Below are positions 10,322-15,737 of a stretch of DNA of 64,000 bases, in pieces. The notes under the pieces were generated by a model that saw nothing but the letters and a program-made list of their open reading frames with translations, ran no database searches and was not told the origin of the DNA. Each line of letters begins with the position of its first letter. Position 1 is the first letter of the stretch. The translations under genes and the position numbers were made by a program. Source of the DNA: Pseudobutyrivibrio sp. ACV-2 (GTDB lineage: Bacteria > Bacillota > Clostridia > Lachnospirales > Lachnospiraceae). Where the stretch lies: assembly GCF_900107545.1 (NCBI RefSeq), contig NZ_FNQZ01000012.1:1-64000 (forward strand). The letters run 5' to 3'.

Positions 10322-10343
10322 AAATGTTGATTTTTCAACATTT
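10322..10343. promoter_or_regulatory. 9-bp inverted repeat upstream of the HTH gene
   Basis: AAATGTTGA pairs exactly with TCAACATTT across TTTT, about 90 bases before the HTH start codon at 10432. It could be an operator or a weak hairpin; there is no long T-run after it. Confidence 0.35.
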
Positions 10344-10431
10344 CTCTAATATTATATTTTTATAATCACCACTGATTCGGTGGCAAAAATATATCTACCA
10401 ATAAATTTTTAATGTTTCACGGAGACTACTT

Positions 10432-11070
10432 ATGGTTCGTAAAAAAATTATTTTACCTGATAAGATTTTTCATAAGCTATGGGATCATGCCTGTGATATA
10501 GATTCCTTTGATGAATTTTACGCGCTGATTACCGCACCATCTTCCCAATCATATATTAATATGCAGAAATATAATATCTCTACCAATCAACTTTATGATA
10601 TCTTGAAATCAATTCATAGTGCCGCACATTATTCTTTAAGATCTATGATTAATGATTATGGTTTTACTAAAGCATCATTTTCTCATAGATTTTGTGTTCC
10701 AATTCGAACAGTAGAAAACTGGTGTAATCAGACAAATAAATGTCCTAGTTATACTAGATTGTTATTTTTAAATGCTCTTGATTATTCGATTTTACCCAAA
10801 GGAATTTGTTTTGAATCATCTATTTCTGTAACTAAAAATACAGAAAAACCATTAGCTGATGAAGCAGAATTTACTATTTCAGCTACTACTCAGGAAATAT
10901 TAAAAGAGGGTTCTCTCTTGGATAAGCAAGAAAATGATTTGTCACACTTTTCACTTAGGGATTGGGAACAGACTCATTCTAATTCTGGTAATTCTGATAT
11001 ACTTGCCAAAACAGATTATCTTTCAGATATATTAAATAGGCGTTCTCGCCAACTTGGCGACAATTGTTAA
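10432..11070 (+). CDS. Helix-turn-helix protein of the partition/replication module, unnamed
   Basis: A 212-residue protein. Residues about 68-115 form a helix-turn-helix with the pattern SLRSMINDYGFTKASFSHRF then VPIRTVENWCNQTNKCPSY. The 'FSxxFxIPxRTVxNWxxGxRxCPxY' pattern recurs in XRE-like plasmid and phage regulators of Firmicutes. The N-terminus (KIFHKLWDHACDIDSFDEFYALI) and the acidic, polar C-terminus (from about 125) are not recognised. It ends inside the first 50-bp palindrome module, 330 bases before parA and in the same direction. A role in controlling or assisting partition is inferred from place and from the palindromes; a free-standing antitoxin-like regulator is an alternative. 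Confidence 0.7.
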   Translation: MVRKKIILPDKIFHKLWDHACDIDSFDEFYALITAPSSQSYINMQKYNISTNQLYDILKSIHSAAHYSLRSMINDYGFTKASFSHRFCVPIRTVENWCNQTNKCPSYTRLLFLNALDYSILPKGICFESSISVTKNTEKPLADEAEFTISATTQEILKEGSLLDKQENDLSHFSLRDWEQTHSNSGNSDILAKTDYLSDILNRRSRQLGDNC

Positions 11071-11097
11071 ATTATTAACAAGCTACGCCAATATGGC
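11048..11097. promoter_or_regulatory. 50-bp triple-palindrome module A (parS- or operator-like)
   Basis: Three palindromes in fixed order: GCCAACTTGGC (11048-11058), 7 bp, GTTAAATTATTAAC (11066-11079), 7 bp, GCCAATATGGC (11087-11097; one mismatch). The left one overlaps the last codons of the HTH gene. The same layout recurs exactly at 11330-11379. The symmetry and the place before parAB suggest a centromere site for ParB or an operator. Confidence 0.7.
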
Positions 11098-11401
11098 AAT
11101 AATGTTTCTTTTTATCTTTTTAATTTGACGTTAATCATTTGTTAATCTACTAATTCAACAAAAAAATAATTAAATTTTAGTACTAATATGTCTAGTTATT
11201 GTTTTTATAAAATATTATAATTTATTATTGTAAAAGACATTGCACTATTTATTCTTTTATATTTCATTTTATTTTAATATTCTATTTAATTTATCCAAAG
11301 AATTACAGATGAATTTCATATTATATCTCGCCAAATTGGCAGTGATGGTTAATTTTTTAACAAACTATGCCAAGTTGGCGAAGCATAAAGGAGGAGAAAT
11401 A
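11071..11401. other. 331-base non-coding region before parA
   Basis: Very AT-rich. It contains most of palindrome module A on the left and module B on the right. Between them (11100-11328) are only long A/T tracts that could be curved or easily melted DNA. The upstream in-frame ATG at 11240 has no ribosome site, so I do not count this as coding. Confidence 0.6.
11330..11379. promoter_or_regulatory. 50-bp triple-palindrome module B, just upstream of parA
   Basis: GCCAAATTGGC (11330-11340), 7 bp, GTTAATTTTTTAAC (11348-11361), 7 bp, GCCAAGTTGGC (11369-11379). Spacing equals that of module A to the base. It ends 7 bp before the parA ribosome site, so a protein bound here would cover the parA leader or promoter. 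Confidence 0.72.
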
Positions 11402-12190
11402 ATGAAATCTATTGCTATTTGTATAGGGAAAGGCGGTCAGTGGAAGACAAGCCTCACTGTAAATATGGCCTATTTATTAAAAGAAAAAGGATATAAGGTA
11501 TTGGTTCTGGATTGTGATACCCAAGCTAATGCCTCTCTCACATTCAAGGCGCGATTAGATGATGCCACTTTATATGATTGCTGGGTAGAAGAAAGACGAC
11601 CTTTAGAACCAGCTGAGTGCATCCAGCACACAGATTTAGGTGACATTATTGTATCGGATACGCTATTAGCAGAGCTAAACTCAAAAGTCTTAGACCCAGC
11701 AAGTTCTCTTGAACTAACATCTTTGAAAACAAAAGTATTTTCTAAACTTGAAGACTATGATTATATTCTTTGCGACTGTCCACCCGATTTAACAGGCTTA
11801 ATCAACAAATCCGTTTTAGCATCAGTAGATGAAGCACTTATTCCTATGGTTGGAGATTCTTATTCCGTTCAAGGTCTAGCTAATCAATACAAGTTAATTA
11901 GAAATTTAACAGATGGTGAGAACCCATTAAATCCAAATCTAAAAATAAATGGTTTTGTAGTAACTGATTATACAACAAACAGAAAAGCTGAAAAAAATCA
12001 TTATGATAATGCAAAAGCAATAGCTGATCAGATTGGCACAAAGCTTTACAAGCAATATATCAGATCCTGTGCTGATGGAAAAAGAGCCATAGATTCACAG
12101 GATGCTGTAGTTAAAGTAAAACCATGGTGTAATAGTTCAATAGACTACAAAGCGTTTGTAGAAGAATTCTTAGAAGGAGAGGGAGCATAA
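11402..12190 (+). CDS. parA: ParA-family partition ATPase
   Basis: A 262-residue protein starting at 11402 behind AAAGGAGGAGAAATA; the frame is open 54 codons further upstream but that part covers palindrome module B and lacks a ribosome site. The deviant Walker A is KGGQWKTS (residues about 9-16), Walker A' is VLVLDCDTQANAS, and Walker B is YDYILCDCPPDLTGLI. There is no N-terminal helix-turn-helix, so this is a short type Ib/Soj-like ParA, in which ParB or another protein usually controls transcription. It binds DNA non-specifically as an ATP dimer and moves the ParB-bound replicon. parB begins one base after its stop, so the pair is translationally coupled. Confidence 0.95.
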   Translation: MKSIAICIGKGGQWKTSLTVNMAYLLKEKGYKVLVLDCDTQANASLTFKARLDDATLYDCWVEERRPLEPAECIQHTDLGDIIVSDTLLAELNSKVLDPASSLELTSLKTKVFSKLEDYDYILCDCPPDLTGLINKSVLASVDEALIPMVGDSYSVQGLANQYKLIRNLTDGENPLNPNLKINGFVVTDYTTNRKAEKNHYDNAKAIADQIGTKLYKQYIRSCADGKRAIDSQDAVVKVKPWCNSSIDYKAFVEEFLEGEGA

Positions 12191-12191
12191 C

Positions 12192-13163
12192 ATGGCAAGA
12201 CAAGCAAGCGGAAGTGGACTTGATGTTAATGGAATTGGATTAGGAAATGTTTTTAATAATATTGTAGGAGAATCCACAAAGGAAAAGAAAAATGATATAC
12301 CTGCCAAGGTCCAAACCGAAAGTGGTCTTGAAAGTAAAGTAATCTCTATTGATTTATTAGATGAAGATGAAAATAATGAATATCTTAATGGATATGATGA
12401 CATCGCTACTCTTCGAAATAGTTTTGAAGAAAATGATGACAATGGTGGTATTCATGTATATGAGAGAAAAAATGGGCACTATCTGGTGTGGTCTGGTAAT
12501 ACAAGATTAAAGGTCGCTAGAGAGCGTAAAGAAAAAGAATTGCTGGTTATTGTAACAGGTCCAGAGCCAGAAGATGAATTTGAAAAACATAAAAGAAGAT
12601 TGGCAATGAATCAAGGACGTCAAGATAGACCTCTTTATATTGCACGAAACATTGCAGAATATGAAAAAGGATTAAATAGAAAAGGCGTACGTGGTGACAT
12701 AAGAAATAAGGAATTAGAAAAAGCATTTTCAATGCCAGCAAGAAACATTCAGCGATATAAGAGAATTTTAAATCTTAATGATGAATTACAATTATTATTC
12801 AAATACCCTCAAAAAGACATTCCTTATATAGCAATGATTGATAAGGTTATACCAAAAATTCCTGAAGATAAAGCAGCAGAATTTGCATCAGCATTTAACA
12901 CAGTTATGAGTGATGGTGAAGAAATGAGTTCCGCTAGACTCGAACAGCTGTTCGATAGCATTGTGAAGGGTGTTAATACCAAGAAAACTAAAGACACAAC
13001 TATTAAAGTAAATCAGATTCTGAAACAATATAAAGCTTTATTGTCAGTGGAATATGATGATGATGGAATTATTGTAGTGAATGAGGAGAAGAAAGATCTG
13101 ATATTAAGAGAAGCTGAAGAATTAAAAAATAATATAGAAGATATTATTGAAGCTTATAAATAA
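12192..13163 (+). CDS. parB: ParB-family partition protein
   Basis: A 323-residue protein. The ParB/Srx N-domain spans about residues 45-125 (KVISIDLLDEDENNEYLNGY then IHVYERKNGHYLVWSGNTRLKVARERK), where SGNTRLKVARE takes the place of the C3/arginine patch motif that binds CTP in other ParBs. A helix-turn-helix region follows (NRKGVRGDIRNKELEKAFSM and ARNIQRYKRILNL, about 155-195). The C-terminus is a helical, charged dimerisation tail. The N-terminal 25 residues (glycine-rich LDVNGIGLGNVFNN) may contact ParA. The likely binding targets are the GCCAANTTGGC modules upstream. The ribosome site GGAGAGGGAG lies inside the end of parA. Confidence 0.92.
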   Translation: MARQASGSGLDVNGIGLGNVFNNIVGESTKEKKNDIPAKVQTESGLESKVISIDLLDEDENNEYLNGYDDIATLRNSFEENDDNGGIHVYERKNGHYLVWSGNTRLKVARERKEKELLVIVTGPEPEDEFEKHKRRLAMNQGRQDRPLYIARNIAEYEKGLNRKGVRGDIRNKELEKAFSMPARNIQRYKRILNLNDELQLLFKYPQKDIPYIAMIDKVIPKIPEDKAAEFASAFNTVMSDGEEMSSARLEQLFDSIVKGVNTKKTKDTTIKVNQILKQYKALLSVEYDDDGIIVVNEEKKDLILREAEELKNNIEDIIEAYK

Positions 13164-13329: not shown

Positions 13330-14230
13330 CTGCGACAAAACGGAGTGTAAATAGCGACAAAATGGCGGGTAAACTGCGGAAATACGGGATAAAACTGCGT
13401 TGGAATGACTAGTAACTGCGTCAAAATAGGATATGAATTGCGTAAAAAGAGTAGTTTTGTCGTAGGTTAGTAGCCAAAATGCCGTAGATGATGAAAGTTT
13501 ATTAGCCATTTTGACGTAGTAATAGTTCTGGAATATGTAAATTGGGGTTAAGAAACCCAGTATTTGAGGGATATTGTGACGAATTACGACAAAATGGGAT
13601 ATGGACTGCGTAGTTGTAGCCAATTTGTCGTAGATTACTAGTCAAATTGACGCAGTTTGGAATAACTAAAGATAAAATGGGGAAAAGTTACTAGCCATTT
13701 TGACGTAGTAGATGTTTTATAGCAATAATAGGCATGTGATAAAAGTGAAAGTGTCTAGTTAATATATTTTGAACACTATTTAGGTCATAAAGAGCTGCGA
13801 CAAAATGGGATATGAACTGCGCAAATGTAGTGAGCTTGTCGTAGATTACTAGTCAATCTGTCGTAGTCTATTAGCCAAATTGACGCAGTTATTGAGTTTT
13901 TAAGAAATAATTTGTAGCATTAAAGGAAATAAATTGGATAAAAAACATTGAGAAAATGGTTGATTTACTGGATTTCAAGGCAGCTGCGACAAAATGGGAT
14001 ATAAACTGCGTAAAAAACTCTATTTGTCGTAGTATACTAGCCAAAATGCCGTAGGCAACTAGTCAAATTGACGTAGTTTCAAGTTAAGATAATCGTAGCT
14101 ACGACAAAACGGGATATAAAAATAAGTGGTTTTACTAGCCAAATTGACGCAGTTCACTAGCCAAAATGTCGTAGATAAAGTAATTGAAACTGCGCAATTA
14201 ATATTATGTTGTCGTAGTTGCGACAAAAGT
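13330..14230. repeat. Iteron array: putative replication origin
   Basis: About 0.9 kb with no gene is filled by two related repeats in opposite orientation. The reverse form is about 20 bp, for example ACTAGCCAAATTGACGCAGT (14134-14153). Copies start near 13468, 13501, 13615, 13637, 13690, 13848, 13870, 14036, 14058, 14134 and 14156, and four pairs are spaced exactly 22 bp. The forward form begins CTGCGACAAAATGGGATAT and ends with a second half ACTGCG; copies lie near 13330, 13352, 13416, 13585, 13794, 13983 and 14099, with a last partial at 14218. Both share the core CTRCGWCAA. Such iterons are the binding sites of Rep_3 initiators, and the gene for one starts immediately after the array. 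Confidence 0.9.
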
Positions 14231-14291
14231 GATTGAAAAACGTAGAAGTGTTTGTTAAACTTTCATTAGTTGATATAACGTGGAGAATAAT

Positions 14292-15737
14292 ATGAGTATA
14301 AGAAGAACTGATGAAAATGGTATTTATAGGGAAGTAGATAATGCTACCGGTCGGTTTATTGATGAAGTTTATTCTGAGGAAGCGGTGATTAATTCATCAA
14401 GGGCAAATCAAATAGAACATCAGACGGTGGCAACCACATATGGTCGAGTTGTTGATCCGGATGAGTTTATCCCTGAAGTGGTAGATGAAAATGGAATGGC
14501 AGTTGTATCTCAGGATATAGAGGAGCTGGAATGCTATATTAAGGAATCTATATCTGTGGATCAGTTGATGGAGACCTTTCATGTAAATTCCCATACTACT
14601 TTATTGAAATTACTTGCTCTTCAGGATAATAAGCATCCTTTGAAAAAGGGTGGTATAAGTATTGCTTATAGGACTGATGCATTGATTATGCATTGTAAGA
14701 TGTCTTTTGATGCTGCGGAAAATATAGTTTTTGATGCAATATTAGGTGTGATGTCATCTTTTCCAGAGAATGAGATATATAGAATAGAGCCAAAGGCTTT
14801 TGAAAAATATATGAAATACCAGAGTGATAACACTGTTTATAAGCAGTTTAAATCTGGTACAGAAAAGTTGACACAAAGGCATTTGGTATTTGAAGGGCTT
14901 GGACCAGATGGGGATGACGATATTATCGTTCCTTGGTTTGATATCCTTAGATATCATAAGAAAAAGGGTTCAGAACCGGCATATATAGAGTTTAGACCAT
15001 CAGATTTCTTTAAGGACTTAGCTCTTTGTTCTCAACTGGTTCATGGTGCATATGGTTCACTAGAGGTTACATCTCAGCTAAGAGGAAAATATACTATTGC
15101 GCTGTATTGGTTTTTGGAAAATCGAAAAAGATATAAGGCATATCCTCAGGCTACGCCGGGTATTTTTGATATGACAGTCGATGAAATAAAGCATCAGTTT
15201 TCAATGCCAGCGACAATCAAGCCAAATGATATAGAAAGAAGATTGATTAAGCCAGCTTACGAGAGTATCAATTCTATAAATGAATGTGATTTTACTTTCG
15301 AGTATGAGATTCTTCGATATGGAAATAAGATTGAAGGAGTAAAATTCTTAATAAGAGAAAAGAAGGCCATAGCTGAGCAAAAGAAACAGGCTACAATCGT
15401 TGAGGATACATTCTATACTCAAATGAAAACAGTTCTTGACGTAGCTGAGCTTGGTTTTTCGGAAAGTGATGTTCTAAACATTTGCAACTGTGCAAAGAGA
15501 AATTCAAAGTCAGTTGGAGATATGTTTAGTATCATAGCAGCATATAAAAATAGAGTTAATAATGATAGCTTAAATCCTGTAGAAGATAGTTTAAGATATA
15601 TTTGCAGTATGATAGAAAATGGAGTTTCGTCTCCAATTGAAAGTGAAAAGAAAGTAGCACCTAAAAAGAATTCATTTACAAATTTCGCACAGAGAGAATA
15701 TGATATTGATGAATTAGAAAAAAAGTTGTTGTCTTAG
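14292..15737 (+). CDS. repB: Replication initiator protein, Rep_3 (RepB) family
   Basis: A 481-residue protein. I start it at ATG 14292, since TGGAG at 14281-14285 is its ribosome site; a GTG 12 bases upstream (14280) is the alternative. Residues about 130-340 hold the paired winged-helix Rep_3 domain (MSFDAAENIVFDAILGVM, YIEFRPSDFFKDLALC, YGSLEVTSQLRGKYTIALYW, MTVDEIKHQFSMP and ERRLIKPAYESINS). The N-terminal 100 residues and the lysine-rich C-terminal 130 residues are extra compared with small plasmid Rep proteins, as expected for a large replicon. It should bind the iterons directly upstream and melt the origin. Gene order parA-parB-ori-rep with its own terminator makes this a self-contained replication cassette. 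Confidence 0.92.
   Translation: MSIRRTDENGIYREVDNATGRFIDEVYSEEAVINSSRANQIEHQTVATTYGRVVDPDEFIPEVVDENGMAVVSQDIEELECYIKESISVDQLMETFHVNSHTTLLKLLALQDNKHPLKKGGISIAYRTDALIMHCKMSFDAAENIVFDAILGVMSSFPENEIYRIEPKAFEKYMKYQSDNTVYKQFKSGTEKLTQRHLVFEGLGPDGDDDIIVPWFDILRYHKKKGSEPAYIEFRPSDFFKDLALCSQLVHGAYGSLEVTSQLRGKYTIALYWFLENRKRYKAYPQATPGIFDMTVDEIKHQFSMPATIKPNDIERRLIKPAYESINSINECDFTFEYEILRYGNKIEGVKFLIREKKAIAEQKKQATIVEDTFYTQMKTVLDVAELGFSESDVLNICNCAKRNSKSVGDMFSIIAAYKNRVNNDSLNPVEDSLRYICSMIENGVSSPIESEKKVAPKKNSFTNFAQREYDIDELEKKLLS

Follow-up and report, generated by a model that had tools for sequence, protein, structure and literature searches.

Organization of the partition locus

Which proteins read the two 50-bp arrays of palindromes that lie upstream of a plasmid parA gene in Pseudobutyrivibrio sp. 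ACV-2, and do these arrays form a centromere? The window, i.e., the whole stretch of 64,000 nucleotides analyzed here, covers the beginning of an 85-kb contig (G000:C21), between the ends of which no overlap was found, in a draft genome of 3.66 Mb and 45 contigs. The elements of the locus follow one another in the order: gene for a helix-turn-helix (HTH) protein (10432..11070, + strand, 212 aa), module M1, a 232-bp spacer, module M2, parA (11402..12190, + strand), parB (12192..13163, + strand), an iteron array (13331..14239) and, recognized by its domain match, a Rep_3 replication initiator gene (14292..15737, + strand). ParA is a Walker-type partition ATPase with a deviant Walker A motif (KGGQWKTS) and an AAA_31 match of 111 bits, above the cut-off, which places it among the ParA proteins of ParABS (type I) systems. 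The iteron array, in which copies are 22 bp apart in places, lies outside the modules and is considered below as a rival binding site.

Both modules have the layout GCCAANTTGGC-N7-GTTAA-N4-TTAAC-N7-GCCAANTTGGC. M1 (11048-11097) comprises the outer palindrome GCCAACTTGGC (11048..11058, a candidate ParB site), the inner palindrome TTGTTAAATTATTAACAA (11064..11081) and a second outer palindrome, GCCAATATGGC (11087..11097), which carries the only mismatch of this module to the layout. M2 (11330-11379) fits the layout without mismatch, with GCCAAATTGGC (11330..11340) and GCCAAGTTGGC (11369..11379) on either side of the inner palindrome TGGTTAATTTTTTAACAA (11346..11363), and the spacer between the modules (11098..11329) has a G+C content of 15.5%. 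The initial annotation had described two modules of this geometry and their placement, and these were recovered as described: M1 is located ~300 bp upstream of parA and overlaps the end of the HTH gene, such that the stop codon of this gene (11068-11070) falls inside the M1 inner palindrome, while M2 ends ~10 bp upstream of the parA ribosome site. It had also held that only spacers and palindrome centres differ between the two; the geometry is the same, but the right-hand spacer is itself partly common to both modules (AARCTAY). M1 and M2 are copies of one repeat, with 38 of 50 identical bases and 71% identity over 77 nt.

In terms of chance occurrence, when up to 3 mismatches were allowed, the full 50-bp pattern was matched twice in the 64 kb and in none of 100 shuffles. 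The half-module (GCCAANTTGGC-N6to8-GTTAAN4TTAAC) was matched three times in the same genome, always at the M1/M2 locus, and in none of the 396 other genomes of the family sample (397 genomes in total). Single palindromes are far less striking, the GTTAA pattern with 1 mismatch being reached in 17 of 100 shuffles.

Recurrence of the module in related plasmids

A homologue of the window ParB was detected in 5 of the 29 genomes of the genus sample (G000, which is the genome of the window, G004, G014, G020 and G023), and in all five a triple palindrome is located just upstream of parA, ending within ~30 bp of the parA start. With the G023 ParB as query, three records of a plasmid database were matched, one of which, pNP243 of Butyrivibrio fibrisolvens, carries the module, here ~220 bp upstream of parA and with imperfect outer palindromes (2 and 1 mismatches); the other two, pCY186 and Oscillibacter pOBV01, are without it. 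Altogether, seven modules were found in six plasmids. The distance between the centres of their outer palindromes is 39 bp in six modules and 40 bp in that of G020, and the centre of the inner palindrome is midway between them in all seven, such that neighbouring dyads keep a fixed, symmetric centre-to-centre spacing of 19.5-20 bp. For each of the six leaders, 3000 simulated ones of the same first-order composition were drawn, none of which reached the thresholds. The suggestion that the spacing is under selection is supported by this comparison, in which the outer palindromes vary in sequence but not in position, and in the related replicons examined the pattern does occur beside parA orthologues, in geometry and not in letters.

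Changes on the two sides of the dyads were also compared. Among six modules (that of G020 was left out, because its 40-bp spacing would force gaps), both partners had changed in 10 of 19 dyad pairs (mean of the shuffles 6.3, with 3 of 500 reaching this number). The covariation score was 0.467 versus 0.141 (reached in 0 of 500 shuffles), an effect that was lost when the partners were slid. These counts come from related sequences, from which the structure itself had been derived, and the occurrence of four unlike outer palindromes at a kept position therefore weighs more than they do.

Beyond the six plasmids no convincing module was encountered. In the 396 other family genomes, the matches to a module model (R1) were limited to four weak ones (E 0.03-0.09), which were treated as chance; by construction, the other sequences that it recovered were those used to build it, and it missed the G020 module with its spacing of 40, so that it is not exhaustive. 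A script run over all loci collected up to that point returned modules in the six named plasmids only, plus two low-scoring matches (L075 and L037) that were dropped. At the former (genome G383, L075 ~1500-1550), a sequence like CAAAAAGTTGA is present in three copies with a period of 20 bp, of which two fall within GCCAAAAAGTTGA; this repeat is a weak match to the module model. In ten more distant par loci, i.e., pCY186 (L034), Roseburia 831b (L037), Oscillibacter pOBV01 (L038) and L092-L098, several of which extend no more than ~1.5 kb to either side of ParB, and in three of which (L093, L095 and L097) no ParA-like ORF was seen, like palindromes were never paired at the module spacing. The parA leader of pCY186 (L034 4061-4650) abounds in repeats of the kind TTTGTGTATTT..TTTACATAA and contains no triple-palindrome module. 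A scan of genome contigs returned one locus, apparently the G023 contig itself by sequence. Viral contigs yielded no relative of ParB, and two short partial matches to the HTH profile, in records that were not matched by the module model.

The inner palindrome and the Rex consensus

The seven inner sites represent one 18-bp box, TTGTTAA-N4-TTAACAA, which by sequence is the consensus of the clostridial redox repressor Rex as given in an excerpt of PMC8457756; the same consensus (TTGTTAANNNNTTAACAA) is quoted in an excerpt of PMC5367854, and both cite Ravcheev et al. 2012 for it. M1 matches at 14 of 14 positions and M2 at 13 of 14, while the remaining sites show 1, 1, 1, 1 and 2 mismatches, the last being that of pNP243. 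The half of the box nearest parA is perfect in all seven modules.

Rex is encoded in the genome of the window, and across its 3.66 Mb the M1 site is the only perfect Rex box. Seven boxes have 1 mismatch, M2 included. Four of the six chromosomal ones precede genes, the distance between box and gene being 58 bp for rex, 295 bp for a thiolase gene, 160 bp for pta and 140 bp for the gene of pyruvate:ferredoxin oxidoreductase, and the other two are inside ORFs. The Rex targets of C. thermocellum include rex and pyruvate:ferredoxin oxidoreductase, according to the text consulted of PMC8457756. With up to 2 mismatches, 69 sites were counted versus 60 in a reversed control; taken together, Rex boxes are thus hardly more frequent than in the control, and only the best sites carry weight. 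The 61 sites with 2 mismatches were accordingly not counted as evidence. Six of them were inspected: four precede the thiolase gene (its second site), an enoyl-CoA hydratase gene (where the site overlaps the end of another ORF), a lactaldehyde reductase gene and a transporter-like ORF; of the last two, one has no close gene and one lies inside ORFs.

The shorter form TGTTAAN4TTAACA was tried on the chromosomes of the genus and rejected as support for Rex; one recurrent site lies in a tyrosine recombinase-like ORF and the other inspected sites adjoin genes of mixed kinds, a context that led us to use the full 18-bp consensus instead. Boxes of this form without outer palindromes also occur on two contigs that bear modules (L025 4800-4815 in G023 and L027 14762-14777 in G004), and the box is thus used, or at least occurs, apart from the ParB sites. 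Judged from these matches, the host Rex protein is the most likely reader of the inner box.

The HTH protein as a candidate for the core

The initial annotation had assigned the GTTAA sites to the HTH protein encoded at 10432. Such a plasmid protein would bind the inner palindrome beside ParB, as KorA does by KorB in RK2, and the likeness to the Rex box would be coincidence or mimicry. The distribution of the gene lends this some support, inasmuch as it occurs in five of the six module plasmids, directly before the module in four (the window, G023, G014 and G004) and elsewhere on pNP243; its presumed recognition helix is kept where the inner site is kept, and upstream of the window HTH gene there is a perfect palindrome with 9-bp arms, AAATGTTGATTTTTCAACATTT (10322-10343), with the spacing of the inner site but with GTTGA half sites (GTTGA-N4-TCAAC). 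This palindrome was not seen in the other HTH leaders. On the other hand, the HTH profile found nothing in G020, a 99%-complete genome that has the module; the recognition stretch of the pNP243 protein differs (PEKSIEAWKSG), while the inner site there changes little; and what the HTH leaders have in common is TGTTTCACG and not the inner box. We regard this assignment as unlikely. The HTH protein is not the best candidate for a site that equals the clostridial Rex box in sequence, and it is less likely than Rex to occupy the core, since G020 has the module without an HTH match and the HTH leaders carry TGTTTCACG instead.

The conserved TGTTTCACG, which is half of the canonical parS, is found in the HTH leaders of all five HTH plasmids, four of which have a pair of copies at a distance of 137-147 bp (window 10413-10421; L025 13746 and 13893; L026 8058 and 8204; L027 3785 and 3932; L035 2386 and 2523). 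The leaders of G023, G014 and G004 contain, in addition, a hairpin, ACACCACC..GGTGGTGT, followed by T's, which resembles a terminator or attenuator (L028, L029 1336-1356).

The HTH protein itself had no Pfam or NCBIfam match above the cut-off and one PHROG match, to a family with no assigned function. Its model is poor (mean pLDDT 58.4), and the helices at 51-115 read as XRE-like. Two further genus genomes (G007 and G010) gave weak partial matches that look like generic XRE proteins. A single-sequence search of the 397 family genomes matched 11 besides its own, and those inspected were not whole-length homologues; they were short or partial XRE-type proteins, or chance.

The outer palindromes and ParB

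In contrast to the inner box, the outer palindromes fall into four classes: GCCAA-N-TTGGC in the window, TTCAC-N3-GTGAA in G023, G014 and G004, GCTAATNNATTAGC in G020 and GGCCAC-N-GTGGCC in pNP243. The ParB proteins vary together with them. The window ParB is 25-34% identical to those of the other module plasmids, with a different helix-turn-helix region, and the ParBs of G023, G014 and G004, which have one outer class, are near-identical in the alignment. The HTH protein and the iterons do not follow this pattern: the presumed recognition stretch of the HTH protein, PIRTVENWCN, is the same in the window as in G014, yet their outer palindromes differ, and the Rep iteron core TGACAAAAAACACACC is common to G020 and the G023 group, the outer palindromes of which are unrelated, such that the outer palindrome does not track the iteron of its own plasmid. 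Because the outer palindromes change with ParB, and the HTH stretch and iteron core are kept across differing ones, ParB would be the best candidate for their reader, as judged from only four classes.

The window ParB is a divergent ParB-like protein. It had no Pfam match at E 0.1, and its relatives were also unevenly recognized by Pfam (G023 below the cut-off, G020 none, pNP243 above the cut-off). The family profile matched chains of ParB, KorB and Noc, with a best E of 4.5e-8, and the structural model (mean pLDDT 70.6) matched KorB, Spo0J and Noc at E ~1e-6, with TM of only 0.2-0.4 by query length. A second ParB-like gene is convergent to parB in G023, G014 and G004 (L003 2349-3293; L004 2338-3348; L005 403-1308); the G023 product is above the Pfam cut-offs for ParB_N and HTH_ParB.

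The modules might also serve only as operators of parAB (and of the HTH gene), with the true centromere elsewhere. Autoregulation by partition proteins is common, and the closeness of the module to parA in the five plasmids of the genus sample fits such a role. The distances of M1 and of the pNP243 module from parA speak against it and favour more than a simple operator. Moreover, few outer palindromes, exact or with 1 mismatch, occur outside the modules: on the window contig, five sites, all with 1 mismatch (8593, 70576 and three in the iterons, at 13619, 13874 and 14138), and at the sister loci, which cover parts of each plasmid, one lone copy in pNP243. We consider an operator without centromere function improbable. 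In pNP243, this copy lies downstream of the module and before parA, within an inverted repeat of 20 pairs (L035 6879-6925). Promoter scans showed no clear excess over shuffles.

That ParB alone should read all three palindromes through two DNA-binding surfaces, in the manner of the A and B boxes of P1, appears highly improbable; two kinds of ParB box do exist in P1 parS (PMC5016525, excerpt), but the inner site of the module stays while ParB and the outer palindromes diverge. Least credible is the notion that the outer palindromes are extra sites for the Rep initiator that couple replication to partition, which the three matches within the iterons might suggest but which the unrelated outer palindromes of G020 and the G023 group, with their common iteron core, make very hard to sustain.

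A proposed composite partition site

The sequence and geometry of the module, its recurrence in six plasmids, the match of its core to the Rex consensus and the Rex-type sites of the same genome were computed, and from them we infer which protein belongs to which palindrome. We give an even chance to the proposal that the module is a composite plasmid partition site, with ParB on the outer palindromes and the host Rex on the core. Of the original idea of a centromere with sites of two kinds, each for its own protein, the association with parAB and the two-site appearance are supported by the comparison, while the HTH protein would give way to Rex.

The plasmid ParB dimers would load on the two outer palindromes, the private parS of each plasmid, and the NADH/NAD+ sensor Rex would occupy the central TTGTTAA-N4-TTAACAA box. 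Because the three dyads keep their fixed symmetric spacing of 19.5-20 bp, it is probable that the proteins bound to them contact, bend or lock each other. At low NADH, Rex in the core would hold or position ParB and damp parAB; at high NADH, Rex would leave, the ParB clamps could slide and parAB would be expressed. More tentatively, and with somewhat less than an even chance, Rex may be a structural and regulatory part of the plasmid centromere in Pseudobutyrivibrio and Butyrivibrio, and segregation and parAB may follow the NADH/NAD+ ratio; the contacts between the proteins, the direction of the effect and any consequence for partition or transcription are part of this conjecture.

To our knowledge, Rex is without precedent as a component of partition sites. 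In the open-access literature, as far as its texts were available and with subscription papers mostly outside this coverage, no Rex site in a plasmid partition site or centromere was found. The literature retrieved in the same way on partition in Butyrivibrio and Pseudobutyrivibrio consists mainly of genome, microbiome and chromid papers, one of which, in the text available, has parB on a chromid and mentions no site (PMC6249431). The novelty would thus be that of a known, ParABS-type partition site with an unusual core.

If the proposal is right, a bacterial centromere incorporates a metabolic sensor, and its core is occupied by a host factor that is not IHF. It would then become possible to test, in anaerobes of the rumen and gut, how the loss and maintenance of plasmids depend on the redox state. 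The combination of a swappable, plasmid-specific outer site with a fixed, host-specific core suggests that partition specificities can diverge without losing the host factor.

Comparison with known systems

The canonical chromosomal parS (TGTTNCACGTGAAACA) is, like the putative ParB sites of the module, a palindromic site of a ParB-type protein, and the 16-bp inner core of the module resembles it in starting with TGTT and ending with AACA. No full canonical site is present on the 85-kb contig or at the five other plasmid loci.

With the clostridial Rex box, the module has in common the sequence of its core, and similar sites precede rex, the thiolase gene, pta and the pyruvate:ferredoxin oxidoreductase gene in the genome of the window. 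In contrast to the Rex targets described in PMC8457756, as excerpted, which are metabolic and regulatory genes, the box of the module is framed by two palindromes at a plasmid partition locus.

In plasmid RK2, the DNA-bound KorA locks or stalls KorB, a CTPase clamp of the ParB family (PMC11790492, excerpt). The proposed arrangement would likewise combine a clamp with a second DNA-bound protein, and KorB is among the nearest structures to the window ParB. Unlike Rex, KorA is plasmid-encoded, and the KorB and KorA sites do not form a triple palindrome.

The parS site of P1 has ParB boxes on both sides of a site for IHF (PMC5016525, excerpt). If our assignments of ParB and Rex are right, sites for the partition protein would flank a site for a host protein in both cases. 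The P1 heptamers and hexamers are arranged asymmetrically around the IHF bend, as described in the same excerpt, whereas the outer sites of the module are identical palindromes, symmetric around a palindromic Rex-type box, which sets it apart from sites of the P1 type. The module would therefore resemble the IHF-cored parS of P1 in its logic and not in its sequence.
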